DNA from: Rhodobacter sp.
Lineage (GTDB): Bacteria > Pseudomonadota > Alphaproteobacteria > Rhodobacterales > Rhodobacteraceae
Direction: 5' to 3'
Assembly (NCBI GenBank): GCA_030066215.1
Contig: JASJCA010000005.1
Span: 1-64,000, forward strand
Length of the DNA: 64,000 nucleotides
How positions within the stretch are numbered: the stretch's first letter is position 1; every line of letters begins with the position of its first letter. Shown here one piece after another: positions 15,670 to 41,114 of the stretch. The position numbers and the translations under genes are program-made. The notes beneath the pieces are model-generated. The model was not told the origin of the DNA, did no database searches, and worked only from the letters and a program-made list of their open reading frames with translations.

Positions 15670-16668
15670 CTACTGAGCGGCCTGACCCTCAGCGCCGGGC
15701 GCCACGATGTCCTCGCCCAGCTTCGCGGCAAGTCCGTCCAGCCGCCGCCCGGATTTGAGGTACTCGGCGAGAACCATCGCATGAACCTCCATCGAGTCGC
15801 GGGTTTGCGACACCTTGTAGGGCACATGTTCGGCGTGGAATGTCAGGCTGCCATCGCGGGCGACCACAAGATAGTCGCTTTTCGAATTCAGCACGACGAC
15901 GATCAGTTCCAGCTGCGGCAAAAGCGACGTTAGATCGCCAGCCGTAACCAGACGGTCCGGAGCGTCCCACCCCGCCGCCGCTCGATCCCAGCCGAGATGG
16001 TCGAATAATGTGTAGTTGGTGATCATGATCGAGTTCGCGTCGGCGATCCAATCCAGGTAGTCGCGCGAGGGAACGCTTTGCCAAATCTCGTGCGGCACCA
16101 CGTCGACCACAACCAGCGCCCCCGCCGCGCGGGCGCGCCGCATCAGGGCCTGCACGGCCCGGCGCTGCGCGTCCTTGACCAGGAAATAGCCCGATACGAA
16201 AAGGACATCCGTTTCGTCGAGCACCGAGAGATCGAGCATCTCGACCGTCTCGGCCCCAAGCATCGCATTGGCGCCGGAGTTCGCCACGATGAACCTGTGA
16301 CGGGGCTCCGGAAACACCATGGCCACCTGGCCGGTTGACTCCTCGACGAAGGCAAGGCGGCTTTCGATCCCGTCTCGCGCCATTGTATCGAGAGTGATTT
16401 GCCCCGCAAAATCGGCGGTCGTCGGATCGGTCGCGCTGTGACCGATGGCGCCGATCAGCACAGATCGGTCGAAGCCGCTTTGCCGGGCGTAACGGGCGAA
16501 CATATAGCCCAATCCGGCAACGGCGGTGCGGATCGGACTGAAGTAGCACCGATTGACCAGAGGCGAACCAGGCGTACGCTCTGGCGAAATGTCGATCAGG
16601 TAGTCCAGCATGACGTCGCCAACGGCGGTCGATGTCAAAGGTTTCGGGCGAGGTGCTGGTGTCGTCAT
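15670..16668 (-). CDS. PfkB-fold carbohydrate kinase-like protein
   Basis: VGDVMLDYLIDI and DVLFVSGYFL features; canonical GAGD motif not found (see findings). Confidence 0.65.
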   Translation of the reverse strand: MTTPAPRPKPLTSTAVGDVMLDYLIDISPERTPGSPLVNRCYFSPIRTAVAGLGYMFARYARQSGFDRSVLIGAIGHSATDPTTADFAGQITLDTMARDGIESRLAFVEESTGQVAMVFPEPRHRFIVANSGANAMLGAETVEMLDLSVLDETDVLFVSGYFLVKDAQRRAVQALMRRARAAGALVVVDVVPHEIWQSVPSRDYLDWIADANSIMITNYTLFDHLGWDRAAAGWDAPDRLVTAGDLTSLLPQLELIVVVLNSKSDYLVVARDGSLTFHAEHVPYKVSQTRDSMEVHAMVLAEYLKSGRRLDGLAAKLGEDIVAPGAEGQAAQ

Positions 16669-16793: not shown

Positions 16794-17567
16794 CTACGCA
16801 GGCGAGCCGCCGCGCCTGCGCAGCAATGCGAGATCGCCGTCCGTGGCTGTGGCGTCGCTGACCCTGGCCCAGTCTTCGGGGTGCTTGATCGCCCTCCATG
16901 CGTCAAGTCGGACCGCATGGCACACGAGTCCGGCGCCGACCAAATCGGTCAGTACCGGCTCATAGGCCGCCCCGGTCTCGAGCCGCCCAAGCACTGCCTG
17001 GACAATCGAGGCGTTGCCGAACCAATGCAGAAAGACATTGATCAATGCGCCCGGCGGGCAGCCGCCAGGAGGTTTCTCGGATATCCCGGCGACGTGTCCG
17101 GCCGCGTTCAGGGTGACCAGCCCCCCTGGAAAGGCGCGGTTGCTTATGGCGACGGAGATCGCCATTTCGTCCGGCCCCACCGTAGCCTGTAGCCGGGCAT
17201 AGGTGTCATCCGGGACCAGGTCGTTCACGCAGGACACGCATGCGCTGTCGCCTGGACCAACCTGCCGCAGTCCCGTCGCGATACCGGATTCGACGGTGCG
17301 GCCGGCCTGTTGCACGACACGGAGCGCCGGGTGCTGGCGCACCGCGGGGTCCGCCTCGATTGAGGCCCGGTTTTGGGCGTTCGCCACAACGGCCACGCGG
17401 CTGGCGATCGGACTGATTTGCCGGATATGGCGTTCGAGCAAGGTTTCCCCGTCGAGTACCAATCGGGTTTTGTCCCGCCCGAACCGTTTGCTTTGCCCGG
17501 CCGCAAGCAAAATCGAAACAACCTCAGCCACGGCCCACACTGCGCTTTGTGGCTGCGCGTGAAGCAC
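16794..17567 (-). CDS. MobA-like NTP transferase / nucleotidyltransferase family protein
   Basis: VSILLAAGQSKRFGRDKTRLVLDGETLLERH motif; true start probably internal (near VVSILLAAG). Confidence 0.8.
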   Translation of the reverse strand: MLHAQPQSAVWAVAEVVSILLAAGQSKRFGRDKTRLVLDGETLLERHIRQISPIASRVAVVANAQNRASIEADPAVRQHPALRVVQQAGRTVESGIATGLRQVGPGDSACVSCVNDLVPDDTYARLQATVGPDEMAISVAISNRAFPGGLVTLNAAGHVAGISEKPPGGCPPGALINVFLHWFGNASIVQAVLGRLETGAAYEPVLTDLVGAGLVCHAVRLDAWRAIKHPEDWARVSDATATDGDLALLRRRGGSPA

Positions 17568-17837: not shown

Positions 17838-19007
17838 CTATTCGAACCTCTCCTTGATCCGTTCAACTGCATCGAGCGACAGCGCAATGGACTGCTCGAT
17901 ATTCGGCGATGGAATTGAGTGACGGCCCAGAAACAATATGCCCTCCTCCGCTCGTGCGAGCTTTTGATATCTGCGCAGCCTATCGATGTTCGCTCGGGTT
18001 TTGGCGAGAAACCGGTAGGGATAGGCCACCCCATTCCTGAGGGTTTCCGGAACAGTCGTGGTCCCGCTAAGCTCGTACCCCACCAGGGTCATGTGGGACG
18101 CAGGCGCATTGTGGTTGTAAGGCAAGTGCATCGGCGCGTGGGTTCGAAAATACGGAACATCGATATCCGGATGTGCCAGAACCGCGACTTTCTGCGCCTC
18201 GCTGGTCTTGACCGGCGCCCAAATGACGACGTTGTCCCGGAAATCCAACGGACCCTCGGAGAAATCGAAAAACGCGTCGATTTCACCAGTATACACCACC
18301 GCCTTGCGGCAAATACCGATGGCAGAACGGATGGCATCGCGAGCCACCCCCATCCTGACGGTGATGTTTTCAGCCCCTAACAGCCGATCAAACAGGCCGT
18401 GAAATCCATGCACGGGCAAAGCCTGCCAATCTGCGAACGGGGCAAATCGATCCTCGGCGTCGAACCGAACCGGAAATCGGGACTTGAAGAGCTCGTCCGA
18501 CAATTTCGACGGGTCTTCACCGAGCTGTTTGGTGGCGAATCCCCTAACGAAGGTCTCGTAAAGTCGGGTGCCCATCGACGAGATGGCTGCGTCCTGCATC
18601 GAGCCGTTTCGGGCCTCATGTTCGGCGGCCTCGATCTGCAGCTGCGCCCTCGCGGCCCGAGAGTCGAAGTTGGCTTCGTACACCCTGTTGATGGTTTCGA
18701 GGTTGATCGGAATGGCATAGGTTTCGGTGCCGACCATCGCGCGCAGCCGATGCTCGAATTTCCGGAACGGTGCAATGCTCTCAAGGTAATCCGCGACAGT
18801 GGAATTCGCGGTGTAGATCACCCGCGTTCCATAAATCGGGACGATCAAGCCATGATCTTCGTCCCATTGCGTCCGGCAAAGCCCGCCGACGTGACTGGCC
18901 TGGTCCAGGACCAACACGGAATGGACGCCAGACTTGGCCAATCGCTCCGCCGCGACCGCCCCGCTGATGCCGCTTCCGATTACAACGAAGTCGTACTGTT
19001 CTGCCAT
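17838..19007 (-). CDS. FAD-dependent UDP-galactopyranose mutase-like protein
   Basis: DFVVIGSGISGAVAAERLAKSG FAD motif; YAIPINLETINRVY; FADWQALPVHGFHGLFDRLL resembles the UGM YQALPxxGY region. Confidence 0.7.
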   Translation of the reverse strand: MAEQYDFVVIGSGISGAVAAERLAKSGVHSVLVLDQASHVGGLCRTQWDEDHGLIVPIYGTRVIYTANSTVADYLESIAPFRKFEHRLRAMVGTETYAIPINLETINRVYEANFDSRAARAQLQIEAAEHEARNGSMQDAAISSMGTRLYETFVRGFATKQLGEDPSKLSDELFKSRFPVRFDAEDRFAPFADWQALPVHGFHGLFDRLLGAENITVRMGVARDAIRSAIGICRKAVVYTGEIDAFFDFSEGPLDFRDNVVIWAPVKTSEAQKVAVLAHPDIDVPYFRTHAPMHLPYNHNAPASHMTLVGYELSGTTTVPETLRNGVAYPYRFLAKTRANIDRLRRYQKLARAEEGILFLGRHSIPSPNIEQSIALSLDAVERIKERFE

Positions 19008-19440: not shown

Positions 19441-19675
19441 ACGCCATTACCTGGCCCTCACAGGCAACGCCGACGGTGATCTATTCCCCGTATCCCAAGG
19501 ACTCTGCTCCCTTTTTTCATTATTCAAACCCGCGACTTTCTGGTACCGTGCAGCGGAGTTGTTCGCTGCGCTATTTGGTTTCTCGCGATTTGACTGAATA
19601 TGTTTCAGCGACGGGCCCGACTGAATCAGATTGTGCGGATTCGGGTCAGAAGTTTTCGAAGGAGGTGTCGCAACA

Positions 19676-20890
19676 GTGGCGAGACCGGTATTTCGCAAGG
19701 CATCCTCTGCAGCGCGCCAGGAAAGCTGGCTGGGCGAGCCGCAGGCGGTATCAGGGCGGATTGGTACCTTTGTCGCTGTCATGTCGCTGCTTCTCTTTGT
19801 CGGCTTCGCTGCGCTTGTCCTTCTTGGCTCTTACACGCGTAGGGAGTCGCTGACCGGCGTGATCGTTCCGGCCAACGGCATGATCCAGATCCTTGCCCCA
19901 ACACGCGGGCGGATCGGTGAGACCGCGTTGACCGAAGGCGAGAGTGTGCAATCTGGGGCGACGCTGTTCCAACTGACGCCAGAGGCCGACATCGCCGACG
20001 GCGACCACGCGCTGATTGCAGCGTTGCTGAACGATCGGGTGGCACTCATCGATGCCGATATTGCCGCGATCGACACGCGACGCGCCGCCGACCGTGAGCG
20101 CATCGAGACCCGCATCGCGGCCGGACAGCGCGAAATCGCATTGCTGGAAGGCCTGATTGCGCAATCGGACGAACTGGAAAACGTGCTGGCCGAGGCGGTC
20201 CAGAGGGATTGGGATTTGTCCGAAGGCGGGCTTGCGGCCCCGAACGGCCTAGCGCAGTCGCTGCAGGCTCTTGCAGCCAAACGGGTCACGCTGCAATCGC
20301 TCAGGCGAGAATTCGTCGCCGTGGAAAATGCAATCGACGAGGCGCGGGTAGAGCTGAGAAACCTCGATGCCGAGTATGATGCGACCGCCAATCGCTTGGC
20401 GCTGCAAAGAAATGAGGTCCTTCGGCAGATTGCTGAGAGCGCAGGCGGCCGGCCGATTGACATCTTGGCACCCGAAAGCGGACGGATCGCTCTGATCCCG
20501 GACAGGGGCGGGCGCGTTGTCGAGGCCGGCGATTTGTTGGCGACGGTCCTTCCGGAGGATTTTGCCCCGCAGATCGAAATCCTCGCCCCAAGTCGGACGG
20601 CCGTCCGACTGGAGGTCGGGACGAAAGTGACCTTGCGATACGCGGCGTTCCCATACCGCAAGTATGGTCATTACGAGGGCGCCGTGGTCAGCGTTTCGGA
20701 GACGGCTTTGGCCCAAGACGTCGCGGGCGGGGTGGAGCCCAAGTCAGGGTCGGTATTCAAGGTCGTCGTCCGCCCCGATCAACCGTACGTGTCGCTAGAG
20801 GGTCGCGACTATCCGCTGTCTCCCGGGATCGAGGTCGACGCGAAGGTACCGATAGAGACCCGGCGCCTCTATCAATGGCTGACCGGCTGA
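19676..20890 (+). CDS. HlyD-family secretion adaptor
   Basis: Single N-terminal TM, TRRESLTGVIVPANGMIQILAPTRGRI, coiled-coil middle; GTG start after GAAGGAGG. Confidence 0.85.
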   Translation: MARPVFRKASSAARQESWLGEPQAVSGRIGTFVAVMSLLLFVGFAALVLLGSYTRRESLTGVIVPANGMIQILAPTRGRIGETALTEGESVQSGATLFQLTPEADIADGDHALIAALLNDRVALIDADIAAIDTRRAADRERIETRIAAGQREIALLEGLIAQSDELENVLAEAVQRDWDLSEGGLAAPNGLAQSLQALAAKRVTLQSLRREFVAVENAIDEARVELRNLDAEYDATANRLALQRNEVLRQIAESAGGRPIDILAPESGRIALIPDRGGRVVEAGDLLATVLPEDFAPQIEILAPSRTAVRLEVGTKVTLRYAAFPYRKYGHYEGAVVSVSETALAQDVAGGVEPKSGSVFKVVVRPDQPYVSLEGRDYPLSPGIEVDAKVPIETRRLYQWLTG

Positions 20891-20894: not shown

Positions 20895-23027
20895 ATGTTC
20901 GATCGTTTGAATGAGCATCTTCAGCCGCTCTTCGGCCGTCGTCTGCCCAATATCTTGCAATCCGAAGCGTCCGAATGCGGTCTGGCCTGTCTGGTCATCG
21001 TCGCCGGGCATTTCGGCATGCTGATCGACATGTCGACCGCCCGAACCCGGTTTCCGGTGTCGGCGCGGGGCAGCACGCTGGTCGATCTCATGCAGATCGC
21101 GGACGACATGAAGCTCAACAGCCGTGCCGTAAGAGTCGATCTAGAACAGGTCCGCCTGTTGAAACGGCCCTGCATCTTGCATTGGAACCACAACCATTTC
21201 GTTGTCCTGACGGCAGTTGGCCGCCGCGCGGTGGAGATCATCGACCCCAGGATCGGCTTGCGGAAGGTGAGCTTTAAGGAACTCGACCGTTCCTTCACCG
21301 GCGTCGCGCTTGAGCTTTGGCCGGACATTGCCTTCCAGCCCGAAGACCTGCGCGAGCGGACCAAGCTGCGCAGCCTGCTCGTCAACACCCAAGGCCTTTG
21401 GTCCGCGGGAAGCAAGATCCTGCTAAGCTCGCTGCTGCTCGAGCTCGCCGTGGTGTTGATGCCGATCGGCCTGAAGGTGGTTGTCGACGAGGTATTGATC
21501 GTCAACGACCTGTCGCTTCTGACGGTGATCGTGCTTGCGCTGTGCCTGCTGCTGCTGGTGCAAGTCCTGGCGCAATTCACGCGAGCCTGGACGATCTCGC
21601 TGACCGGGGCGTCGCTGTCGCTGCAATGGAAATCGGCGCTTTACCGTCATTTGATGCGGTTGCCTTCGGACTACTTCGCCAAACGCCACATCGGTGATGT
21701 GGTGTCGCGGTTCCGTTCGCTGGACAGCATCCAGCAAACGATCACTTCGCGCAGCGTCTCGGCACTGGTCGACGGCGCCACATCGATCTTCATTGTCGCG
21801 ACCATGGCCATCTACGCTGGGGCCCTAACCGCTCTGGCCGTGACAGGGGTCGCCATCAACCTCGGTCTGCGCCTGTCGCTGTTCCCGGTCTTTCGCCGGC
21901 TGACGCAGACGTCGATCATGACGCATGCCGACGAGAATTCGCATTTCATCGAATCCGTGCGTGCGATCGACTCGATCAAAGCGCTCGGCATGGAAGAACG
22001 GCGCAGCACAAGCTGGACGAATTACATGGTCCAGTACATCAACGCCGATCTAAGCGTCGAGAAATACAACGCGATGATCGAGGCGGTGCAGCGGTACATC
22101 CTGGGCGGCACCCGGATCGTGTTGATTTATGTCGGCACATTGGGCGTTCTGAATGGCACGATTTCGATCGGCGTTTTCTTCGCCATTCTGACCTATAGCG
22201 AGCTTCTGACCACACGGACCATGGCGGTCGTCGACGTCATCATCGAATTCAGATTGCTGCGGCTGCATGCCGAGCGTATCTCGGACATCACGCTGGCCCC
22301 GCCCGAGGACGACGACACCGGTATCCGCCCCAGCCCCGCCGAAACCGGCGCAGGCCAGGTGAAGCTGCGCAACGTCTTCTTCGCCTATTCCAAGAACGAT
22401 CCGGTCGTGCTGCAAGACCTCAGCCTGACGGTCGAGCCGGGTGAAAGCGTCGCCATCAGCGGACCGTCCGGGGCGGGAAAGACCACCCTGGCCCGGCTGA
22501 TCACCGGCCTTGCCTTGCCCACGTCCGGTAGCATTTCCATCGATGGGATGCAGTTGACCCCACAGACGATTGCCGCCTATCGCAGCAAGGTGGGCTGTGT
22601 GCTGCAGGACGACCGTCTGCTCGGCGGTTCGATCGCACAGAACATCTGCGGGTTCGACCCGCAAGCCGACCGCGACCGCATCGTCCAGGTTGCGCGCGTG
22701 GCGGCGATCCATGACGAGATCATGGAGATGCCGATGCAATACGAAAGCCTTGTCGGCGATATGGGGTCGACCCTGTCGGGCGGTCAGCAGCAGCGTATCG
22801 TGCTGGCGCGCGCGCTTTACCGGAAGCCGTCGGTTCTGATCCTCGATGAAGCGACGAGCCACCTGGACACGACCAACGAGCATGTCATCAACGCCGCGGT
22901 GTCCAATCTGCAGATGACGCGGATCATCATCGCCCATCGGGAAAGTACATTAGACTCCGCGGACCGGGTAATCGACTTGTTCGCCTGCCAGAACAGGGCG
23001 CAGGCCTTGCAAGACGCCGGGTCCTGA
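20895..23027 (+). CDS. peptidase C39 domain-containing ABC transporter (bacteriocin/microcin exporter type)
   Basis: LQSEASECGLACLVIVAGHFG (Cys), HWNHNHFVVL (His), IIDPRIG (Asp) plus GPSGAGKTTLARL, LSGGQQQRIVLARALY, LILDEATSHLD. Confidence 0.95.
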   Translation: MFDRLNEHLQPLFGRRLPNILQSEASECGLACLVIVAGHFGMLIDMSTARTRFPVSARGSTLVDLMQIADDMKLNSRAVRVDLEQVRLLKRPCILHWNHNHFVVLTAVGRRAVEIIDPRIGLRKVSFKELDRSFTGVALELWPDIAFQPEDLRERTKLRSLLVNTQGLWSAGSKILLSSLLLELAVVLMPIGLKVVVDEVLIVNDLSLLTVIVLALCLLLLVQVLAQFTRAWTISLTGASLSLQWKSALYRHLMRLPSDYFAKRHIGDVVSRFRSLDSIQQTITSRSVSALVDGATSIFIVATMAIYAGALTALAVTGVAINLGLRLSLFPVFRRLTQTSIMTHADENSHFIESVRAIDSIKALGMEERRSTSWTNYMVQYINADLSVEKYNAMIEAVQRYILGGTRIVLIYVGTLGVLNGTISIGVFFAILTYSELLTTRTMAVVDVIIEFRLLRLHAERISDITLAPPEDDDTGIRPSPAETGAGQVKLRNVFFAYSKNDPVVLQDLSLTVEPGESVAISGPSGAGKTTLARLITGLALPTSGSISIDGMQLTPQTIAAYRSKVGCVLQDDRLLGGSIAQNICGFDPQADRDRIVQVARVAAIHDEIMEMPMQYESLVGDMGSTLSGGQQQRIVLARALYRKPSVLILDEATSHLDTTNEHVINAAVSNLQMTRIIIAHRESTLDSADRVIDLFACQNRAQALQDAGS

Positions 23028-23080: not shown

Positions 23081-24343
23081 TCAATCCTCGAAGCACCGAG
23101 AGACGAACTCGCCAATATGACGTTCCACGTCGCTGCAATCGGCCTCTTCGGCATGTATCAGAGCGCTGAGATACATCGCCTCGACCATCGCGCCACTGTA
23201 AAAGGACCCGGGACGCTTCCACGACGGGAAGATCTTGGCGATCTTCTCGAAACGCGGGTCTTCCGGAATTCGTCTGGAGCGAAGCCGGTCGCGATTGATC
23301 AAGGGCTTGGTCGCAGCTTTGTCGCCACCCGTGGTGACCCGTCTGATACGCCCGATGTTTAGCGGCCGGTCGTCGACCAATGTCGTGACGAACCCGGATG
23401 CCGCAAAATGCGCCTTGAACTGGGTAAGGTCGACGATCCGCGCCGACAAGGGTTCGGACGACACGCCACGGGTCAGCTGAATGTTGGTGGGAAAAATCGT
23501 GTAGGGAGGCTCGAGCCCCAAAAGCTCTGACAAACGGTCGATATGCTTCTCGGTCACCTCGGTCATTCTGCCACGATGCCGAAGGCAAAACTGGCCCTCC
23601 TCCCAGGCAATCGAAATGCAGGTGGACGCACCGGTGCTGGTCAACCCATGTTTTTCGATTTCGATTTGGATCCGAGACTGGACGTCTTCGGCAGCGGAAT
23701 TGGACAAAGGGATTTCGTTGTTCTCAGGCGGGCGCAGGTGGCCGTCGCGCACAAGATTGGCGACCGGAAAATCCGGCCCGTCGGCGCTTGGGTATGTGAA
23801 GCCCAAATGCCAAACGCCGAACAGCGGCACGCAGGAGACGTCGAGGCCGATCGTAGCGAACAACCGGTTCAAGATACGCTCGTTGATGACTTCACCCAAC
23901 GCGATGTGCAGATACAGCAACCCATTGCTGTTGCGATCGTTGCCGGGCCGCGTTCCATCCGGCACGCCGCAGCCTTTGACGTCGAACAGCAGCGCCTGCC
24001 CGGAGTCCGTGATCTCGAGCTCGAAAATCGACGCGCGACCGTAGCGGGGCGGCCGATGGCCGAGAAGACCGATGTCGCGGGACGTGTCGGGACCGAGCCC
24101 CTGCGCGACCGACATCGCTCCGCCGATATCTGCCAGCGCGTCGAATACGTCGTCCGGGTCGCGCGTCAGGTGCGCCAGTTCCAGCTTGGCCCTTAGATGG
24201 TCGGAGTTTGCGTAGACCAGGCGGGATCCGGCAACACGGGCATGCATCTGCGGCTGCAGCGGATAGTCGACCGCGGCCTTCATGTCATCGATGGAGCGAA
24301 TTATCTCGGGTGTTACGGGCATTCCGGCGATCTCATCCTGCAC
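23081..24343 (-). CDS. uncharacterised protein; weak resemblance to SelO/YdiU-type pseudokinase N-lobe
   Basis: GRASIFELEI...LLFDVKGCGVPDGTRPGNDRNSNGLLYLHIALGEVINERILN resembles the SelO K-G-x-G...E region; the rest is not recognisable. Confidence 0.35.
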   Translation of the reverse strand: MQDEIAGMPVTPEIIRSIDDMKAAVDYPLQPQMHARVAGSRLVYANSDHLRAKLELAHLTRDPDDVFDALADIGGAMSVAQGLGPDTSRDIGLLGHRPPRYGRASIFELEITDSGQALLFDVKGCGVPDGTRPGNDRNSNGLLYLHIALGEVINERILNRLFATIGLDVSCVPLFGVWHLGFTYPSADGPDFPVANLVRDGHLRPPENNEIPLSNSAAEDVQSRIQIEIEKHGLTSTGASTCISIAWEEGQFCLRHRGRMTEVTEKHIDRLSELLGLEPPYTIFPTNIQLTRGVSSEPLSARIVDLTQFKAHFAASGFVTTLVDDRPLNIGRIRRVTTGGDKAATKPLINRDRLRSRRIPEDPRFEKIAKIFPSWKRPGSFYSGAMVEAMYLSALIHAEEADCSDVERHIGEFVSRCFED

Positions 24344-24364
24344 GTCCCAATCCGCTGCCCGCGT

Positions 24365-25471
24365 TCAACGCGTCAGACAGTGCTCAAGCACATCCAACAC
24401 AAGCCCCGGCTCGTCCTCGCCCATCGCTTCATGCAGCGGTAGGCACAGCGTTCGCGAAATCAGGCTGCAAGTGACGTCGTCGGCGCCCGCGGCGGCGCCG
24501 AACGCGGCATGCGCGGTCCACGGCACTCCGTACATCACGCTGCAATCTATACCCTCCAGCGACATTGCTTCGGCGACGGCGAATAGATCGACACCCTCCG
24601 GCAGCTGCACCGGATACCGCGTCGGCACAGTTAGCGAGCCCCCTGCCCCAGCCGTGACAGAATAGTCGCCGGAAGCGAGGCGGTTGTCATACGCACGTTG
24701 CAGTGCGCGGTACACAGATTGGATGTCGGCCCGCCGTGCCCATTGGTGGTAGGCCATTATCGCGTTGATTTCGCCGATCTGGCGGTCGCGATAGATGTGG
24801 CCTCCACCGTCCCAGATATGTTCACGCCCGCTATGCGCCCGCGCGGCCTCGGCATAGTCGGAAAGGCCGCTGTCGGCGGTGACCAGTGCGCCGCCCTTGG
24901 CCGAAGCGACGGGCTTTGTAGGGTTGAACGACAGGAGTTCCGCGATCCCTTCGCCGGTCGGCCGGTGCTGCAAATAGGCTTCGTCAGGCAAAAGATTGGC
25001 GCTGTCGACGATCACGAACCACCCGCGCTGTCGCAGGTCGTCGAGACCGCGCAATTCGCGCGCGCTCGAAATCCCGAAACTGTGTACATGAATCAGGATC
25101 GCGGGCGGCAGGTCGGCCAGCGCCGCTATGTCCCCTGCGTGGGTTTCGGGCGAAACCCCAAGCGCGACGGGCGTGGCGCCCGCCGCAGTGACCATAGACG
25201 GAACGGCCTGGAAGCAGTTGGCCGGCAGAAACACCTGTCGGCCGGCCGGGGCGAGATGCTCCAGAACGATCTCCAGCGCGTCCATGGCCGACGACGCTGC
25301 AAAGACCGGGGCCGAAAGATCGGCGGCCAGCGTTTCTTCTAAGCGACGCGTGTATGGACCGGTAGAAAGCCAACCGGATTCGATTGCCGTCCGGATTTCT
25401 GCAAGCGTCGGACCAGGATCGGGCAGCACGAAGCGTTTCGACCGGATGCGGTTTTGCTGCATCGTCTTCAT
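24365..25471 (-). CDS. DegT/DnrJ/EryC1 family PLP-dependent aminotransferase
   Basis: ESGWLSTGPYTRRLEETLA, LSFNPTKPVASAKGGALV (PLP Lys region); ATG overlaps the upstream TGA by 4 nt. Confidence 0.87.
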   Translation of the reverse strand: MKTMQQNRIRSKRFVLPDPGPTLAEIRTAIESGWLSTGPYTRRLEETLAADLSAPVFAASSAMDALEIVLEHLAPAGRQVFLPANCFQAVPSMVTAAGATPVALGVSPETHAGDIAALADLPPAILIHVHSFGISSARELRGLDDLRQRGWFVIVDSANLLPDEAYLQHRPTGEGIAELLSFNPTKPVASAKGGALVTADSGLSDYAEAARAHSGREHIWDGGGHIYRDRQIGEINAIMAYHQWARRADIQSVYRALQRAYDNRLASGDYSVTAGAGGSLTVPTRYPVQLPEGVDLFAVAEAMSLEGIDCSVMYGVPWTAHAAFGAAAGADDVTCSLISRTLCLPLHEAMGEDEPGLVLDVLEHCLTR

Positions 25472-26172
25472 GCGTCGACCTTTGCGCATTGGGCTTCCCT
25501 CAGGTGCCCGAGCGCCCCTGCTGCGCCCATGTGAAACAGCATGTCCCACCCCGCCAGGTGGCTCAAAAAGGGCTGCCGCCCTTGTCGGTAGACCGGGTGG
25601 TGGAAGCGCTGCCACACGACCCTTAGCCCCGCCGCCTCGAACTGAGCGACGTCCAGATAGGTCGAGCCGTCGCCGGTCAGGTATCCGGTGGCGCCCAGCC
25701 GTTGGCAAATCTCGACCAGAAGTCCGGACTTGCGGGCCGAAAACGGTCCCAATTCGCTGGCGACGAGGCATTCGGTCCGGACCCCGAAGATGTCGAAGAT
25801 CTGGCGGCTGCTGTCTATGCCAAGCTCTGCCAGGGTCCCCCATTGCCGGTCATAGAACCTGTGGAGGTCTTCGCGGAAATCCTTGGCATGGGCGGCCGAG
25901 GCATAGGCCTGCAGGATCGCGTCGCGATGCTTTCGGCGCCAGTTGCGGTCGTAGGAGATCGGCGTTTCGTCCAGTGAGCGCGCTGCGCCCGAATGCCGGA
26001 TCGGAACTGACAAGAGCTGCCGCCGCGGGCCGGCGCCGATGTAGTTTCGGTTCTGCCAGCCGCCACGCGAAAAATCGACGGTGTCCAGGAACACGAAAAC
26101 ATCGGCCCGGTCCGCCTTTTCGATATAGCCGAGCCAGGGCAAATAATGCGGCTGATGGATGGCAACTAGCAT
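25468..26172 (-). CDS. WbqC family protein
   Basis: MLVAIHQPHYLPWLGYIEKADRADVFVFLDTVDFSRGGWQNRN. Confidence 0.88.
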   Translation of the reverse strand: MLVAIHQPHYLPWLGYIEKADRADVFVFLDTVDFSRGGWQNRNYIGAGPRRQLLSVPIRHSGAARSLDETPISYDRNWRRKHRDAILQAYASAAHAKDFREDLHRFYDRQWGTLAELGIDSSRQIFDIFGVRTECLVASELGPFSARKSGLLVEICQRLGATGYLTGDGSTYLDVAQFEAAGLRVVWQRFHHPVYRQGRQPFLSHLAGWDMLFHMGAAGALGHLREAQCAKVDA

Positions 26173-27044
26173 GCCGGTGCCGCCACCGGCAGCAACGCGG
26201 AAACCGCAGACGACGCCGGCGCCATCACACAGGGCTCGGTGAATGGTGCTGAGACACCGGCGCGCTTTGCATACGCCTGATCCCGGTCGCGCGCGATCTG
26301 CCGGTAGTCGCGATTGTCGGCAGAGGTGTAGCTGCCGAACGCCGCACGCCGTTCCAATTGCGAGCGATGGGCAGCGATTGCGGTTGCTTTCCGGTCGGCC
26401 AAATCGGCACCGAACGCGAAGTCGGCCCGGGCCAGGCCTGCCGGCAGCGTCTCCCACCCGAGCGAGGAAAGCGGTTCATAGAATGCCAGCGTCAGCGGCT
26501 TGTTCGACCCCGCCAGGGCGTCGAGGACCATCCAAGTGGTGATCCGGTGTATGGCTTGCCGATCATTTGGCGCGGGCAGGCAAACTACCGCCGCGGCAGG
26601 CAGTTCTTCGATTTGCGCCGCGACCGCCGCACGCGCCGCGTCGGTCACTGCGCCTGGGCGAAACCCCGCGACGTCGATCAGGCCGCCATGGGCATCCATC
26701 GCTTCGGCAGGCGTCGCGGCCTCGGTGTGCCAGGTTTGCTGGGTCAGCGTCTCGACGCGGTCGATCCCAAGCGCCTCGGCCTCGCGCCTGGCCTCCGCGA
26801 CCCGGATCTCGCCGCGAAGCCGAGCGGATTGGGGCGCGGTCCATGCCTCTGTCCATTCGTGGCGGACGAGCGTCTGCTTCGCCATGCGGCCTTCCGATCC
26901 GTCGGTCACAAGCAACATGGTCGAAGACTCGGCGCGCTCTGCCAGAAACGCGGCCAATCCGCCCATTCCGATGCAGATGTCATCCGGATGGGGGCTGACG
27001 AACAAGACGCTCTTCGGCGCAATCTCCTGCCAGGCTTGCGCCAT
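26166..27044 (-). CDS. PIG-L/LmbE family deacetylase
   Basis: VLFVSPHPDDICIGMGGLAAFL (HPDD zinc motif), LLVTDGSEG; overlaps WbqC gene. Confidence 0.85.
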   Translation of the reverse strand: MAQAWQEIAPKSVLFVSPHPDDICIGMGGLAAFLAERAESSTMLLVTDGSEGRMAKQTLVRHEWTEAWTAPQSARLRGEIRVAEARREAEALGIDRVETLTQQTWHTEAATPAEAMDAHGGLIDVAGFRPGAVTDAARAAVAAQIEELPAAAVVCLPAPNDRQAIHRITTWMVLDALAGSNKPLTLAFYEPLSSLGWETLPAGLARADFAFGADLADRKATAIAAHRSQLERRAAFGSYTSADNRDYRQIARDRDQAYAKRAGVSAPFTEPCVMAPASSAVSALLPVAAPAC

Positions 27045-27046
27045 GC

Positions 27047-28156
27047 CTACCGCCGCTCCAACAGCGACAGCACATGCGCCCGAATGTTCTGCCCTGCATC
27101 CTTGCCCCGGCAGTTCTCGGCCGCGGCCGCGGCCATCCGGGTCCGTAGCGCATCGTCGCCAAGGAGGGTCCGCGTGGCTTCGCGCACCCTGTTCTCGAAA
27201 TCCGGGCCTTCCTCGACCACAACGCCGGCACCTGCATCGCTGGCGAAGACGGCGTTGGCCAATTGGTGGTTCTCTGCCACGTTCGGAGAAGGCACCAAAA
27301 CCGACGGCAGCTTCGAACAGAAGATCTCGCTTAAGGTCGAGGCACCGCTGCGCGACACGATCATATCCGCCGCAAGCATGAAGATCGCGGTCTCGTCGAG
27401 GTACTCGTAGATCTTGTATCGGTCGGTCGCGCCACTCTGCATGGCGTCCCGCTTCGCTGAAACCTCGTCGAAATATCGCCGGCCCGTGCCGTGCAGCAAG
27501 ACCAGATCGGGTCGGTCTATAAGCAGGTCGGTCAAGGCCTCTGCCGCCGCATTCAAGGCCGGGGCACCGCCGCTGCCGCCGACGACCAGGATGACCGTCG
27601 CCGTGTCGGGAACGCCAAGCTGGGCCCGGGCGTCGCTTTTGGTGAAGGCCCAAAATGCCTGACGAACCGGGCACCCGGTCACGAACATCTCGTTCTTCGG
27701 GAAGTGCCGGTCTTCGACCGGAAAGGTCGTGAGCACGTCCATGCCGGCAATGCGCCCCAGAAATCGGTTGGCCTGGCCGGGACCGACGTTCTGCTCGTGC
27801 AAGACCAGACGCCGCCGGGCCAGCCAGCCGGCCAGAACCATCGGCACGCTGACGAAGCCACCGACGCCGATGATCAGGCGGGGTCTGAGCCGAAGCACAA
27901 GCCAAACCCCTTTCATCGTGCCGAGCAAGAGCCGAAGCGCAAGGCCGATGCGGTTTAGAAGACCGGGTCGGTAATAGGTGGATTGAATGGCGAAGAATGG
28001 TATCCCCTTTTGCGGAATCACTTCGGCTTCGATGCGGTCTGGGTTGCCGACATAGGAAATCTCGGCCACGTCCTGAATCGCCTCGATGATCGCCAGTGCC
28101 GGATAGAGATGACCGCCAGTGCCACCGCCGGTCACAATAACGGGCTCTTTTGCCAC
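27047..28156 (-). CDS. MurG-like UDP-sugar glycosyltransferase (GT28)
   Basis: VTGGGTGGHLYPALAII, IGVGGFVSVPMVLAGWL, LHEQNVGPGQANRFL, MIVSRSGASTLSEIF. Confidence 0.88.
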   Translation of the reverse strand: MAKEPVIVTGGGTGGHLYPALAIIEAIQDVAEISYVGNPDRIEAEVIPQKGIPFFAIQSTYYRPGLLNRIGLALRLLLGTMKGVWLVLRLRPRLIIGVGGFVSVPMVLAGWLARRRLVLHEQNVGPGQANRFLGRIAGMDVLTTFPVEDRHFPKNEMFVTGCPVRQAFWAFTKSDARAQLGVPDTATVILVVGGSGGAPALNAAAEALTDLLIDRPDLVLLHGTGRRYFDEVSAKRDAMQSGATDRYKIYEYLDETAIFMLAADMIVSRSGASTLSEIFCSKLPSVLVPSPNVAENHQLANAVFASDAGAGVVVEEGPDFENRVREATRTLLGDDALRTRMAAAAAENCRGKDAGQNIRAHVLSLLERR

Positions 28157-28224
28157 CCCTCAAAAGCCTCTCAATCTGCTCTATGGCTACGGTATCGACC
28201 GCAACCGGAGCACGCAATATCGAG

Positions 28225-29430
28225 CTACAGGAACCAGGAGTGGCGCGGCTCGAACTCGTCGGCGGGCGGAAAGGCAACCTGGCCCTCGAGGGCCGCATTT
28301 ATCGCCTTGGTCTGTTTGATGTGGCGGCACCCGATCTTATAGCATCCCGACGACATCATGCGGTCTTCGATCTTCGCGGCGACCTCTTGGTGTTTTGCGC
28401 CGCCCCAGATCTCGTCGAACTCCATGAAATTCAGATTGCCGATGCAGTATTCCGGCGTGCCCCATTGCGGCCCGCAGACATAGACCTCGCCGTTGGACAG
28501 AACCCAGGCGTTGAGCCCCAGCCGAACGGTCCAGCACCGGCTGTGCTCGCCGCTGCTGCCCTTGGCGCCGAGGATGAAGCCGATATTGTCGCGCCAATAG
28601 TCCAACCCGTAACGATCGCAGAGATGCAGCAGCGAGTGCTTGAACTCTTCGATCTGGGGCGGGGTCAAGGCGACCTCGACGCCGTCCTCGTAGTCGTCGA
28701 CCAGCCGCAGGTGGATGTTATCGAAGCCGACTGAAACCGACCAATCGTAGATCTCGTGCAGCCAACGGTAATTGATCTGGTTGATCAAAATTTTGGCGTT
28801 GATCGCCGGCGACTCCAACCCGTTGTCGCGCTTGACCTCCTGCAGCAGCTTGACGTTGGCCGCAACTTTTTCGGGACAGTTTCGGCGCGCGGCGACCTGG
28901 AAATAGGACTCGTCGTCATGGGCAAAGACCGCCACTTCGATGAAGATCATACGCCGAAGCGTTTCCGGATCCGCCAACGTGTGGCCCATCAACATATTCG
29001 AGGCCATTCCGGCCCGGGTCGTGTCGAGGTTCAGGCCGCCGATATACTCGGCGATCTTGCCGCGCTTCCAGATCAGCGGTTCTCCACCGCCGCAATACTG
29101 GACCCCGCGCACCCCCATGCGATGCAACGAGACGTGCAAGCGGTCCATCATCTCGACCGGCATGCTCTTGAACCGGTACTCCCGGTTGCGATCCTGCGCG
29201 TAGCAGTGAATGCAGTCGATCTGGCAGGCCATGGTCGGATAGATTTCGACCGACCACGGCCGCGACAGGATTTTCGGCCGCTCGCCGCGGCGCAACGCGG
29301 CAAAATCGATCTCCCCCGCCTTCTCGGCGTCTTCTACGGCATAGAGTGCCTTGTGTGCCGAGAAGTAGTCCTTGTGGGTTCGTGTGATCGTGATCTGGAA
29401 TTCTTCATCAGACTTCGGCGCGCCGTCCAT
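28225..29430 (-). CDS. radical SAM/SPASM domain protein
   Basis: YPTMACQIDCIHCYAQ (CX3CX2C), GVQYCGGGEPLIW; C-terminal Cys-rich SPASM-like region. Confidence 0.9.
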   Translation of the reverse strand: MDGAPKSDEEFQITITRTHKDYFSAHKALYAVEDAEKAGEIDFAALRRGERPKILSRPWSVEIYPTMACQIDCIHCYAQDRNREYRFKSMPVEMMDRLHVSLHRMGVRGVQYCGGGEPLIWKRGKIAEYIGGLNLDTTRAGMASNMLMGHTLADPETLRRMIFIEVAVFAHDDESYFQVAARRNCPEKVAANVKLLQEVKRDNGLESPAINAKILINQINYRWLHEIYDWSVSVGFDNIHLRLVDDYEDGVEVALTPPQIEEFKHSLLHLCDRYGLDYWRDNIGFILGAKGSSGEHSRCWTVRLGLNAWVLSNGEVYVCGPQWGTPEYCIGNLNFMEFDEIWGGAKHQEVAAKIEDRMMSSGCYKIGCRHIKQTKAINAALEGQVAFPPADEFEPRHSWFL

Positions 29431-29431
29431 C

Positions 29432-30550
29432 CTAGAAAAACCCTTTGTGCTTCGACACGAAGCTGCTGAAAAACTCGATCATCTGGTTCTGCTGATGATG
29501 CACGCAGTACGGGCAGGAATAGAGGTTCAACTCTTCGACGACCTTGCGGCGCTCGTCGCTTTCCCAGATTTCTTTCAGCGACTTTTCGTAGATGTTGCCG
29601 ATGACCCCATTGTTGTTCGTTCGCTTTTGCGCGCACAGATACACGTTGCCGTCCGCGTTGATGATCGGCTTGAACGCCTGCCAGTGGCATTTGGTGTAGC
29701 CGCGCACCTGATGCGTCTCATTCGCGAAGATCCGGTCCATGACGTGGACGTCGAAATCGTCGTCCTGCAGGTCGAGAACGCGTTCGACCTGCTTAAGCGC
29801 CTCGTTCTGCAGTTCCGTCGACATCGGAACGCCGGAATAGGATTTCAGCTGGATGTAGTTTGCGCCGGTCGATTTCACCAATTCCGCACATGCCTGGACC
29901 TCATGCACGTTGTCTTCGTTGATGAAAAAGCCCGTGCCAACGGTACAGGGACCGTCCTGCGCTGCCAGATTGCGCAGGTTGTCGATGATGCGAGGATGGT
30001 CGTCCTTCTGGTGAAGCTTCAGGTGCAATTCGGGCGAGGCGGCGTCGAGGCTGAACCGAACGTAGGCCGCATGCTTCTTCAGCTTGGCCTGGAATTTCGG
30101 CTTCACCAGCGATCCGTTGGTCACCAGCCCCGCCGAGATCCCATAGGAATGCGCACGCTCGATGGCGGCCGTCGTGTCGGGATGAGCCATCGGTTCGCCA
30201 CCGCCGACAAAGAGGATGGACTTGACGCCCAATTCGCCCAACTCGTCGATCGTCTCCAGAAGACGGCTGCGCTGCATCGTTTCGCTGCGCTCTTTCGAAT
30301 GCATAGAATGGTAGATGCAAAAGCTGCAGTTATGGTTGCAGGCATTCGACGGATCAATCTCGACAGACTTTGGGAACGGATTTTCACCCATTGCATATGA
30401 GGTTATGAAATCTTGGTTCTCCAGCAAACGAAGAGGATCGAATAGGAATCTATACTTGTGACGCTTTTCGATTTCAGCATACTTGTAACCGACTTCTTCA
30501 CCAATCGAACGCGCACCGGATGTAAGGACTGCGACATCTTCGTTTATCAT
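29432..30550 (-). CDS. radical SAM/SPASM domain protein
   Basis: DPSNACNHNCSFCIYHSMHS (CX3CX2C), ILFVGGGEPMAHPD, SPASM-like C-terminus with CHWQAF...YLCAQ...CPYC; 1-nt gap to next gene. Confidence 0.92.
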   Translation of the reverse strand: MINEDVAVLTSGARSIGEEVGYKYAEIEKRHKYRFLFDPLRLLENQDFITSYAMGENPFPKSVEIDPSNACNHNCSFCIYHSMHSKERSETMQRSRLLETIDELGELGVKSILFVGGGEPMAHPDTTAAIERAHSYGISAGLVTNGSLVKPKFQAKLKKHAAYVRFSLDAASPELHLKLHQKDDHPRIIDNLRNLAAQDGPCTVGTGFFINEDNVHEVQACAELVKSTGANYIQLKSYSGVPMSTELQNEALKQVERVLDLQDDDFDVHVMDRIFANETHQVRGYTKCHWQAFKPIINADGNVYLCAQKRTNNNGVIGNIYEKSLKEIWESDERRKVVEELNLYSCPYCVHHQQNQMIEFFSSFVSKHKGFF

Positions 30551-30653
30551 TTGACACTCCCAGGAAGGCTGGCCAAGGTGAGCCGTAATCAATCCCCCGA
30601 TCATAAGAGACCGAGGGGCTGTTAGTCAATCTTAAGCTGAGTCCTGGATTGGC

Positions 30654-31526
30654 CTAATCCACTCCACGGCCACGGCCGGCTTCCAGAAGGCGATACCACT
30701 CTTCGTGGTCCAACCGGAGGTCGATGGCGTCGACCGCCTCTTTCACGCGATCGATCTGCGCCGTCCCAAGGACCGGCCGGGCGATCGCAAAGGCGTTGAT
30801 CCACGCAAAGTAGACTTGCGAGCGGGTGGCGCCGTGGCGCGCCGCGATCTCGTCCGCAACCGGCGCAACCCGCGCTCCAACCTCGTTGTCGGCATCGAAC
30901 GCTGCGCCGCCGCCCAGCGGCGACCAGGCCATCACTTCGCAGTTTCGCGCCTGAAACGCGGCCATCGAACCATCGAGCACCGGGTCGATATGGCTGAGGC
31001 TCAACTGGATCTGGTTGGCAGTCACCGGAAGTACGTCGCGCAGCAGATCGAGCTCAAGCGGCGCATAGTTCGAGACCCCAAATCGCGCGGCCTGATCGTT
31101 CTTCAGATAGGGCGTGATCGCCTCGGCCACCGCTGCCGCATCGGTCAGGTAGTCGAAGCGGTGGATCATCAGCATCTCGACTTGATCTACGCCAAGCTCC
31201 TCGAAACTGGCATCGATGGCCGATTTCAACGCATGCGCCGAACTGTCATAGTAGTTGATTTTGCGCCCTGGGAAGGCGTCGCATTTCCGGGCGATGCCGA
31301 CTTTTGCAATTAGGCGGCACGCCGTTTTCAGCTCAGGCGCCTCGGCCAGCGCCCGGCCAACAAGCGTATTGACCGTGTGGTCGCCGTAGATATCGGCCAG
31401 ATCGATGTCGACGCAGCCAAGCTCGACGCAAGCCGACAGAAACCGCGCGACCTCGCCGGGCGCCAAATTCGCGCCCCAGCTTCCAAGCCGCATGGTTCCG
31501 ATGACGGGGAATTTCTTGTCGGCCAT
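30654..31526 (-). CDS. aldo/keto reductase
   Basis: IGTMRLGSWG...DIDLADIYGDHTVNTLVGRAL; LMIHRFDYLTD; RFGVSNYAP. Confidence 0.88.
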   Translation of the reverse strand: MADKKFPVIGTMRLGSWGANLAPGEVARFLSACVELGCVDIDLADIYGDHTVNTLVGRALAEAPELKTACRLIAKVGIARKCDAFPGRKINYYDSSAHALKSAIDASFEELGVDQVEMLMIHRFDYLTDAAAVAEAITPYLKNDQAARFGVSNYAPLELDLLRDVLPVTANQIQLSLSHIDPVLDGSMAAFQARNCEVMAWSPLGGGAAFDADNEVGARVAPVADEIAARHGATRSQVYFAWINAFAIARPVLGTAQIDRVKEAVDAIDLRLDHEEWYRLLEAGRGRGVD

Positions 31527-31549
31527 CCGGACATCTCCCTTAACGGCGT

Positions 31550-32971
31550 TCAAATCCTGTAGCCCAAAGCCTGCATCTGGCGCCGCATGGCCTCGTCGAG
31601 CTTCGGCTTCTCGGTGCGCTCGGACAAATTGGCCCGGCGGTTGTAGGCAGACAACATCTCTGCCAGGCGCGCGGTGGCGCCGACGTCGTCGGCCGGCTCA
31701 TAAAGACCGTCGGGCCCGCGTCGCGTCAGATGCAGCTCTTCGTCGGGATTGACCACCAATTCGGTGTCTTCCGCCGACCGAACGTAGCTCAGGTGGCGCT
31801 TCACCAATTTCCAAGGGCCATCATAGATGCACTCACAGGTCAGATGGTGCGGCACATCGATCTTTCCGCTCTTGCGCTCCAGCAGCCGGTTTTGAACGCG
31901 CCTGAGGTCGGTGGAATTCGCTGTGTAGGTCTGCGCATAGGCCGGTGCGGGCGGCTGGCTTTCGCCCCGCATCAGCGGCACCAGCGAATGACCGGACAAG
32001 TTCGGCAGATCGCCGCCGATCAACTCGATTACGGTTGGCGCGATATCGACGGTTCGGACCGGCTCGGCGATGCGGTTGGGGGCAATATCGTCGCCGAAAA
32101 GGATCAGCGGCACCTGCAACGCGCCTTCCGTGACCGAGTTGTAATGGCCATAGCTTTCGGCGGAATAGTCTTCGCCGTGATCGCCGAAGAGCACGATGAG
32201 AACCCGTTTGCCCTTGGTGCGCTCGAAGACCTCGTCGAGGAACCGCTGAAAATGGCCAGCGTCGAACCTGTTAATCCCGGCAAGGTAGAGGTCGAACAGC
32301 TTGTCGTAGTCGCCGGCGAGATAGAGCGCCTCGATTACGGCCTTGTAGCGCAGCAACTGGTCAAGCCTGGCACCGTCCAGAAAGGTCTCGACAAACCGGT
32401 CGACTTGCGGCGGGGCCGTCAGGTCGAAGGCGGCCTCCATCGCGGCAACCTGTGCATCCAGCGACTCGACGCTATCGTCGTAAGACGAATAGCCATAGGG
32501 CATGTGCACATCGGCGAAGTGATAGAACATGAAGACCGGATCGCTGCCCGACAGCAGCGGCAGCACCGGGAATTCGCCTTCCACCACATAGTCGTCGACG
32601 GCCTTGGTAAAGCCCAGATAGTCGCCCAAAACGAACGGGAAGTCCGTTTTGAAAGCCGTGCGGTATCCAAGGTCCTTGGCGGCGTGAAACAGGGTTCTCG
32701 CGGCCAAATCGCCATTGAGATATTCGTGCAGTCCGGTCTCAAGCGGCCAGCGCCCGCTGAAGATCGTCCCGTGCGACGCGGATGTATAGGGCGCCGCACT
32801 TCGGGCTTCGAGAAAATGCGCCCCGCGCGCTGCCAGGTCGTCGAGATGTGGTGTGTTCAGACGTTCGGTCGCACGATACCGCTTGGGCCAGTGCTTGGCA
32901 GGATGCGAAGCGATGGCGTCGAACCGAAGCGTGTCGCAGGAAACCAAAAGGACAATGTCATATCCTGCCAC
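31550..32971 (-). CDS. sulfatase-like (alkaline phosphatase superfamily) hydrolase
   Basis: DIVLLVSCDTLRFDAI, APYTSASHGTIFSGRWPLETG, VLIVLFGDHGEDYSAE. Confidence 0.88.
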   Translation of the reverse strand: MAGYDIVLLVSCDTLRFDAIASHPAKHWPKRYRATERLNTPHLDDLAARGAHFLEARSAAPYTSASHGTIFSGRWPLETGLHEYLNGDLAARTLFHAAKDLGYRTAFKTDFPFVLGDYLGFTKAVDDYVVEGEFPVLPLLSGSDPVFMFYHFADVHMPYGYSSYDDSVESLDAQVAAMEAAFDLTAPPQVDRFVETFLDGARLDQLLRYKAVIEALYLAGDYDKLFDLYLAGINRFDAGHFQRFLDEVFERTKGKRVLIVLFGDHGEDYSAESYGHYNSVTEGALQVPLILFGDDIAPNRIAEPVRTVDIAPTVIELIGGDLPNLSGHSLVPLMRGESQPPAPAYAQTYTANSTDLRRVQNRLLERKSGKIDVPHHLTCECIYDGPWKLVKRHLSYVRSAEDTELVVNPDEELHLTRRGPDGLYEPADDVGATARLAEMLSAYNRRANLSERTEKPKLDEAMRRQMQALGYRI

Positions 32972-33003
32972 GCAGACGTCCTTTCAGACATAAGGAACTA
33001 AGA

Positions 33004-33975
33004 TCAAAGACCGAACTGCAACCTACGGGTATTGCGCAATATCTGGGTTGCTCTGTCAAGGTTGTTGGCCATTGCCGGGCGGTCGTCCCTGTCCGCCGCC
33101 CGCTGCGCCTCGGCGATCCGGCGAAGCAGCAGCGCAATCGGAATCGTTCGATCGTAAAAGGCGAACCGCCGGCGATATTCGGCCCTGCTGACGCCGCGCA
33201 TCGGCATATCCCGAAAGACCTCTCGAAGGCGGCGCGACCAGCGCGCATTGGCGCGATGGTGCACTGCCTTGGCCACCTCGCATACCGGATCGCCAAGGCC
33301 GGCATCCTCCCAATCGACGAGCGTCAGCGAGCCATTCGTCCCCAAGATCGCATTGTTGAACCCAGGGTCGCCGTGGCACAGCTGCAAGGGCGTCGTTGTC
33401 TTGGGCAGACGCTTGGCCAGTCGGTCGATCCAGTCGATCCTGCGAAGCGCCGCATTGTACAGTTGGGTCGTTTCGGGCCGCGGGCGAATGCCACCGGCGG
33501 TCTCGGCCAGCATAAGCCCCATGCGAGACGGGCAGCCCGGGTTCATCTTGGCCGCGCCAACGCCGGTCACGCTTGGCCCTGCCAGACCTGCGAAAGCCCG
33601 CATCGCCCGTAACAGCAGCGACCGGCCGACCGGTCCCGCGGACAGCGTGCGTCCGGCAGCAAAAGTTGTGACCAGCAGCGGTCCAGGCAAATCGGGTCGA
33701 TCCAAGATCAGCGAGAGGGGACTGGGACACGACCCGTGATCCCGCTGCAACCGCAGAACGTGGTATTCAGTGCGGGCTTTGGGGTCGGCATTCTCGGGAA
33801 AGAGCTTGGCCGCAAATCTCGCGTGACCCGTCGCAATCTCAAACACAACATTCGTGTGTGCCGGAAGGCGCCGGATCCGTGCCCGCAGGCGCCCGGCCTC
33901 TCCCAGAACGCCGGTGTCCAACACGGCATCCAATACGGCCTGAGCTGAAATGCGCGCTGAATCGAAGGCGTCCAT
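33004..33975 (-). CDS. aminoglycoside phosphotransferase/choline kinase-like (APH) family protein
   Basis: LQLCHGDPGFNNAIL...LTLVDWEDAGLGDPVCEVA (Brenner and DFG-equivalent motifs). Confidence 0.87.
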   Translation of the reverse strand: MDAFDSARISAQAVLDAVLDTGVLGEAGRLRARIRRLPAHTNVVFEIATGHARFAAKLFPENADPKARTEYHVLRLQRDHGSCPSPLSLILDRPDLPGPLLVTTFAAGRTLSAGPVGRSLLLRAMRAFAGLAGPSVTGVGAAKMNPGCPSRMGLMLAETAGGIRPRPETTQLYNAALRRIDWIDRLAKRLPKTTTPLQLCHGDPGFNNAILGTNGSLTLVDWEDAGLGDPVCEVAKAVHHRANARWSRRLREVFRDMPMRGVSRAEYRRRFAFYDRTIPIALLLRRIAEAQRAADRDDRPAMANNLDRATQILRNTRRLQFGL

Positions 33976-39679: not shown

Positions 39680-39764
39680 GGTCTTTTTCCCCGGAGAACA
39701 GATGCAGCGCCCAGAGGGCGTTTTGCAGGCGCTGCGCGGAATTCTGAGTTGAGATCCATCGGCA

Positions 39765-41111: not shown

Positions 41112-41114
41112 CTG

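Follow-up and report, generated by a model that had tools for sequence, protein, structure and literature searches.

The window analysed here is a 64,000-nucleotide stretch of contig JASJCA010000005.1 in the metagenome-assembled genome (MAG) of a Rhodobacter sp. (89% complete). It contains ten minus-strand open reading frames (ORFs) at positions 23081–33975, each confirmed in the letters of the DNA, as an earlier interpretation made without database searches had described. This sequence-only reading regarded them as one operon that combines two radical SAM (rSAM) enzymes with aminosugar-type chemistry. Nine of its family labels were recovered by Pfam, namely APH, sulfatase/AlkP fold, aldo/keto reductase (AKR), radical SAM (rSAM1 and rSAM2), GT28 (a MurG-like glycosyltransferase, GT), PIG-L, WbqC, and DegT. 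The boundaries of the cluster had to be redrawn. Judged by conservation in other genomes, the natural unit is not the ten-gene run but a seven-gene core. This core includes two genes omitted from the earlier reading, which encode a homolog of UDP-galactopyranose mutase (UGM) and a MobA-like sugar nucleotidyltransferase (NTase).

Conservation and distribution of the seven-gene core

The genes rSAM1-rSAM2-UGM-WbqC-DegT-NTase-MurG occur in identical order, contiguous and closely packed, in Microbispora amethystogenes, M. hainanensis, and on plasmid pSVL1 of Streptomyces vietnamensis. Only these seven genes were found to be common to the window and the three actinomycete loci. In the window, all seven are located on the minus strand within 14 kb, with a plus-strand HlyD and C39-ABC gene pair parting UGM and NTase from the other core genes. 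A MAG titled Parvularcula (Alphaproteobacteria) carries AKR-rSAM1-rSAM2-MurG on one contig, where the series is ended by the contig edge. On a second contig, it possesses UGM, NTase, a gene for a 262-amino-acid uncharacterised protein, a histidine phosphatase, and a second AlkP-fold protein (AlkP2). The core is defined by five loci, one of which is split over two contigs and incomplete. By this comparison, it is co-conserved in unrelated genomes beyond chance. Among the genes first listed, rSAM1, rSAM2, MurG, WbqC, and DegT are retained across phyla, whereas those for APH, the first AlkP-fold protein (AlkP1), PIG-L, and an orphan protein were not seen in the related clusters.

The rSAM1 orthologs share the following identities with the window protein: 85% (Parvularcula MAG); 61% (M. 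amethystogenes); 62% (M. hainanensis); and 61.5% (S. vietnamensis pSVL1). For rSAM2, these values are 77% (Parvularcula MAG) and 50–54% (actinomycete copies). The other core proteins are less similar: 40–42% for WbqC and 34–35% for DegT, 46% (Parvularcula second contig) and 31–33% (actinomycetes) for UGM, and 50% and 36–40%, respectively, for NTase. Across phyla, identities of 50–62% in the rSAM pair thus compare with 31–42% in the partner genes, which suggests that the rSAM enzymes define the chemistry of the pathway. Three further genes are common to both alphaproteobacterial loci. The AKR is 53.5% identical to that upstream of rSAM1 in the Parvularcula MAG, the histidine phosphatase is 52% identical to a copy located 1 kb past UGM-NTase, and AlkP2 is 63% identical to its counterpart on the second contig.

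A scan of ~85,000 species genomes for rSAM1, which relied on exact peptide patterns that distant relatives escape, gave four matches, three of them close orthologs (the Parvularcula MAG, M. amethystogenes, and M. hainanensis). In a plasmid collection, rSAM1 was found on S. vietnamensis pSVL1, while the rSAM2 query retrieved pSVL1 and nothing else. At E ≤ 1e-60, rSAM1 was present in just one genome among 387 in the class and one among 150 in the family (both the window genome itself), and in 2 of 349 genomes in the order of Microbispora. In the viral collection IMG/VR, no rSAM2 relative was found; its contigs encode radical SAM proteins that align along most of rSAM1 with 24–33% identity. The collections searched contained no close paralogs of rSAM2. 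The S. vietnamensis plasmid copy has transposases in its wider flanks. The GC content of window positions 8001–62000 is 61%, whereas the two edges of the window have 69% and 67%, which suggests a large acquired region; neither an integrase nor an att site was found. Given the sporadic distribution, the occurrence on a plasmid, and the reduced GC content, the cluster was apparently acquired horizontally and passed between distantly related bacteria. A published description of a pathway combining rSAM enzymes with UGM, WbqC, or a MurG-like GT was not found in open-licence papers.

Properties of the core enzymes

Both rSAM1 and rSAM2 contain the CX3CX2C motif and four auxiliary cysteines, all invariant in the five orthologs of each enzyme. 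The auxiliary residues lie in the C-terminal domain: in rSAM1, counted along the 390-aa ORF, they are Cys 306/324/364/367 (spacing 17/39/2), and in rSAM2 Cys 299/319/363/368 (spacing 19/43/4). A full SPASM domain is expected to contain seven cysteines, and the Twitch type of BtrN four. With four cysteines rather than seven, the auxiliary domains of both enzymes are predicted to be Twitch-type. Profile matches of rSAM1 among solved proteins include TigE (8vpo), SkfB, viperins, DesII (1.6e-6), PqqE, BlsE (~2e-5), MoaA, and BtrN (0.0016). The auxiliary part alone matched BtrN first but weakly (E = 0.12), with the same C-x17-C. The best solved relative of rSAM2 is DesII (E = 0.0017). The NCBIfam cut-off for DesII was far from being reached. 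This evidence favours a sugar or cyclitol as the substrate of both enzymes. A fold search with the rSAM1 model gave generic rSAM neighbours and was not decisive. A viperin-like role in defence was rejected, as the pVip profiles match the generic rSAM core only.

The UGM homolog aligns with UGM over its full length and retains the FAD motif and the conserved Arg181/Arg288. Its score against TIGR00031 is 166.6 bits (equivalog cut-off 303.75), and the protein is regarded here as a predicted FAD enzyme homologous to UGM, not assigned as a true UGM. The alphaproteobacterial pair has Arg in place of the YGPHIFHT His, and PSPNI where UGM has its Tyr-rich C-terminal stretch. The actinomycete homologs retain this His, and those of Microbispora also Y-L-D-M. 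In view of these differences, the mutases of the two lineages may act on different substrates. The DegT protein retains the PLP-Lys motif FNPTK, of which F-x-PTK is invariant in the orthologs.

The GT28 enzyme scores 221.5 bits against TIGR01133, below the cut-off for housekeeping MurG (250.25), and is by its sequence a MurG paralog. In M. amethystogenes, it is closer to the cluster copy (35%, 1.7e-44) than to the other MurG match (29%, 2.5e-26); in M. hainanensis, by contrast, a MurG-like gene located elsewhere equals the cluster copy in score. Within the window MAG, GT28 matched only itself at E ≤ 1e-8. A housekeeping MurG was not seen there, probably owing to incomplete assembly.

Gene boundaries, accessory genes, and surroundings

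The tight spacing described earlier agrees with the coordinates. A single nucleotide lies between the rSAM1 stop (29432) and the rSAM2 start (29430), PIG-L and WbqC overlap by 7 nt (26166–26172), and WbqC and DegT by 4 nt (ATGA, 25468–25471). The start of rSAM1 is most likely ATG 30550, which is preceded by GGGAG, and not 30604, because conservation begins at residue 19–20 of the longest ORF (390 aa). This leaves a 103-nt gap to the AKR gene, whose own start may be ATG 31526 or TTG 31553, and the ten genes may therefore be split into two transcription units. Strand and gene order of the proposed ten-gene operon stand. A 710-aa ORF at 26166–28298 was considered as a GT–PIG-L fusion and rejected, since the GT occupies its own frame (27047–28156). 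This ORF is PIG-L (ATG 27044) prolonged upstream via a non-coding frame over MurG.

Table 1. Genes of the core, shared and accessory genes, and adjacent exporter genes in the window
Feature	Group	Position	Strand	Match
rSAM1	core	29432..30550	-	PF04055 7e-23, SPASM 2.9e-10; 372 aa from ATG 30550
rSAM2	core	28225..29430	-	PF04055 2.7e-08
MurG-like GT28 glycosyltransferase	core	27047..28156	-	PF04101 7.5e-27, PF03033 1.2e-25
WbqC-family protein	core	25468..26172	-	PF08889 8.6e-57
DegT/DnrJ/EryC1 PLP aminotransferase	core	24365..25471	-	PF01041 1.1e-33
UGM-like FAD enzyme	core, outside the ten-gene run	17838..19007	-	GLF PF03275 2.5e-28
MobA-like sugar NTase	core, outside the ten-gene run	16794..17567	-	PF12804 4.2e-17
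AKR	common to both alphaproteobacterial loci	30654..31553	-	PF00248 2.8e-31
Histidine phosphatase	common to both alphaproteobacterial loci	10769..11467	+	PF00300 1.5e-48
AlkP/sulfatase-fold hydrolase 2 (AlkP2)	common to both alphaproteobacterial loci	11473..12795	-	PF00884 7.1e-30
PfkB-like sugar kinase (weak)	follows the NTase	15670..16668	-	TIGR04382 iolC kinase E=0.0015
PIG-L family deacetylase	accessory in the window genome	26166..27044	-	PF02585 1.4e-13
AlkP/sulfatase-fold enzyme 1 (AlkP1)		31550..32971	-	PF00884 3.3e-20
APH-family kinase		33004..33975	-	PF01636 2.3e-22
Orphan protein, 420 aa (SelO-like in the sequence-only reading)		23081..24343	-	no Pfam or NCBIfam match
HlyD-family membrane-fusion protein	neighbour, not in conserved unit	19631..20890	+	PF13437 2.6e-16
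C39-peptidase ABC exporter	neighbour, not in conserved unit	20895..23027	+	PF03412, PF00664, PF00005

The APH kinase, AlkP1, PIG-L, and the orphan are, as far as sequence comparison can tell, lineage-specific or untraceable. Neither an APH nor an AlkP1 gene was observed next to the relatives' clusters, and PIG-L had no homolog at E ≤ 1e-3 in three relatives' genomes (the Parvularcula MAG is possibly incomplete). None of the NCBIfam equivalog cut-offs for APH is approached by the APH-family kinase, which scores far lower. The TIGR04382 match of the PfkB-like protein, which has no Pfam match and is not present in the relatives, is likewise far under its cut-off. Thr occupies the formylglycine (FGly) position of both AlkP-fold proteins (AlkP1 as aligned to a solved sulfatase-family protein; AlkP2 in the motif T-P-V-S-H). 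This residue is also found in phospho-transferases and phosphodiesterases of the AlkP superfamily. The combination of an FGly sulfatase with an rSAM (anSME) maturase, which would call for Cys or Ser, was rejected: given this Thr, neither protein is an FGly sulfatase, and the idea of a sulfatase matured by rSAM finds no support.

The orphan had no Pfam hit at E = 10, no NCBIfam match, and no convincing PDB match. No relative was detected in any collection searched, among them 245 further genomes from the same order, nor was a homolog found in the genomes of the relatives (one of them the possibly incomplete Parvularcula MAG). Residues 102–169 include a KGxG...RxG stretch like the SelO N-lobe. 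Against the SelO HMM, the orphan scored -2.5 and shuffled copies up to -0.5; the hhalign probability was 4%. The single-sequence structure was unusable (pLDDT 34). With a profile score not above shuffled controls and a genuine SelO gene elsewhere in the window genome, the SelO pseudokinase was rejected and the earlier label is not supported.

The sequence-only reading placed the operon beside a double-glycine peptide and a C39 exporter. The exporter is present and, with catalytic-looking Cys/His/Asp residues, appears active. A pattern search of the non-coding space at 15–58 kb revealed no convincing ORF for the peptide. In the sequence examined, including 3.5 kb beyond UGM in the Parvularcula MAG, no cluster of a relative was seen with the C39 exporter or HlyD next to it, and a link of this pair to the cluster was not substantiated.

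A neighbouring group at 34890–46800 (minus strand) and 49105–50592 (plus strand) resembles a combined polysaccharide and type I secretion locus. It encodes a GH26-like protein, a cellulose-synthase-like GT2, two epimerases, HlyD, and an ABC exporter. The group also includes 653-aa repeat-rich and 521-aa Gln/Gly/Asn-rich proteins, followed by genes for a LuxR regulator and a TolC-like protein. Other clusters were noticed in actinomycetes. Positions 6181–20475 of a plasmid from Streptomyces sp. NBC_00239 harbour a different cluster with PIG-L, WbqC, GT4, a MurG-like GT, two radical SAM genes not matching rSAM1/rSAM2, two aminoacyl-tRNA-ligase-like genes, and dCTP/deoxycytidine deaminases. In Streptomyces plasmids pSGZL and NBC_01343, a MurG-like GT adjoins a DegT-ATP-grasp-RfbB set, another small GT28 cluster type.

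Proposed pathway and comparison with known systems

We consider it somewhat more probable than not that the core is a rare, apparently horizontally acquired pathway for making, radically remodelling, and attaching a nucleotide-activated amino sugar (or pseudosugar). The observed gene content, gene order, co-conservation, domain identities, and cysteine pattern are the material from which we infer every chemical step, as well as a product that would belong to the small secondary metabolites and not to the surface glycans. A kinase (PfkB-like or APH in the window, HprK-related in Streptomyces) and a phosphatase would provide a sugar-1-phosphate, which the MobA-like enzyme would convert to an NDP-sugar. 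An oxidoreductase and DegT might install the amine. By analogy with BtrN and DesII, the rSAM enzymes could then abstract hydrogen and so bring about a dehydrogenation, a deamination, an epimerisation, or a change of the ring. The UGM homolog could isomerise the ring, and WbqC could make some further modification. The MurG-like GT28, as sole transferase, would use one acceptor, while PIG-L and the AlkP-fold enzymes may tailor the product in this lineage.

The presence of one GT and the absence of flippase and polymerase genes from the core argue for this pathway. The aminosugar-type chemistry proposed earlier for the rSAM pair is supported by the co-conserved core, the auxiliary-domain anatomy, and weak homology to sugar and cyclitol rSAM enzymes. 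Several observations weigh against the pathway. rSAM1 also resembles peptide maturases and viperins (SkfB 4e-8), which leaves the substrate class unproven, and SuiB tops the fold search with a low-confidence rSAM1 model (pLDDT 55). More distant rSAM1 relatives (27–29%) occupy surface-glycan loci, in which WbqC, UGM, DegT, and NTase are commonplace. Partner genes with only 31–35% identity could partly be independent recruitments.

The strongest alternative, which we consider fairly unlikely, is surface-glycan decoration, with the core making an unusual amino or furanosyl residue for a lipopolysaccharide (LPS) O-antigen, a capsule, or an actinobacterial wall glycopolymer. O-antigen and capsule loci with WbqC, UGM, and DegT have several enzyme families in common with the core, and the NTase is likewise a usual member of them. 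Distant rSAM1 relatives adjoin NeuB/PseF-like, PfkB, and SIS genes, a WbqC relative adjoins pseudaminate-type genes, and the GT2, two epimerases, and GH26-like gene lie just upstream in the window. However, the core contains twin rSAM genes and a single GT, without flippase, polymerase, or further GTs. It is also very rare and occurs in actinomycetes, which do not have LPS, with one copy on a plasmid. A modified, RiPP-like or glycosylated peptide appears quite improbable. In this scheme, SPASM-like rSAM enzymes would modify a precursor, the GT would glycosylate it, and the C39 protein would trim and export it. The matches of rSAM1 to SkfB and 8vpo/TigE by sequence and to SuiB by fold, together with the intact C39 exporter embedded in the locus, point this way. 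Opposed to it are the double-glycine precursor not found by pattern in the window, the exporter not seen beside the relatives' clusters, four auxiliary cysteines versus the seven of full SPASM maturases, and the UGM, NTase, DegT, and WbqC genes, which have no role in a simple RiPP pathway.

An even slimmer chance is given to a pseudosugar or aminocyclitol glycoside made by HpnI-HpnK-HpnJ or pactamycin logic, in which the GT adds GlcNAc, PIG-L deacetylates it, and an rSAM enzyme remodels the ring. HpnI, HpnK, and HpnJ carry out GT, deacetylation, and rSAM steps on bacteriohopanetetrol (BHT) to form the BHT cyclitol ether (PMC12583986). A similar trio of GT, PIG-L, and rSAM genes is adjacent in the window. 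The Hpn trio lacks UGM, NTase, DegT, and WbqC, and here the NTase and UGM indicate nucleotide sugars. Since PIG-L was not found in the relatives' genomes, deacetylation falls outside the conserved core, and an HpnIKJ-like trio would apply to this lineage at most.

Returning to the preferred amino-sugar pathway, we tentatively suggest, as a possibility only, that the twin rSAM enzymes act with the altered UGM-like flavoenzyme to remodel the ring of a nucleotide-linked amino sugar in a way not described before. If true, the outcome would be a novel class of glycoside natural products common to Alphaproteobacteria and actinomycetes. A seven-gene set that travels together across two phyla, with the radical pair best conserved, is a defined and testable pathway, and it is open to heterologous expression through its copies in actinomycetes, one of which is plasmid-borne. 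A modified amino sugar as product would offer new radical steps for glycan or antibiotic chemistry.

The sequence-only reading had seen echoes of known pathways. As in the BtrN and NeoD steps of 2-deoxystreptamine synthesis, a Twitch-type rSAM enzyme is found beside a GT, a PIG-L deacetylase, and a DegT-type aminotransferase. The window differs in having a GT28 rather than a GT4-type enzyme and in adding UGM, NTase, WbqC, and a second rSAM. The 2-deoxystreptamine pathway was rejected because no 2-deoxy-scyllo-inosose synthase (DHQ-synthase family) is among the window profile hits; the only gene of this family in the whole MAG is on another contig. Mycothiol and bacillithiol synthesis were likewise discarded. 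PIG-L scored 29.7 bits against BshB1 (cut-off 182.5) and 16.8 bits against MshB (cut-off 224.35), the GT is of type GT28 and not GT4, and no operon protein contains a cysteine ligase domain (MshC or BshC). The UGM homolog departs from UDP-galactopyranose mutase in its score below the equivalog cut-off and its altered His and Tyr motifs. MtdL, a metal-dependent GT75 mutase that does not use FAD (PMC9937993), provides no model for it. The series of kinase, phosphatase, and nucleotidyltransferase may recall the logic of NDP-heptose synthesis. Although similarity to rSAM1 and rSAM2 is low and partial, DesII (dTDP-4-amino-4,6-dideoxyglucose ammonia-lyase) and BlsE (cytosylglucuronate decarboxylase) offer the parallel of rSAM enzymes whose substrate is a nucleotide-linked (amino) sugar or a nucleoside sugar.

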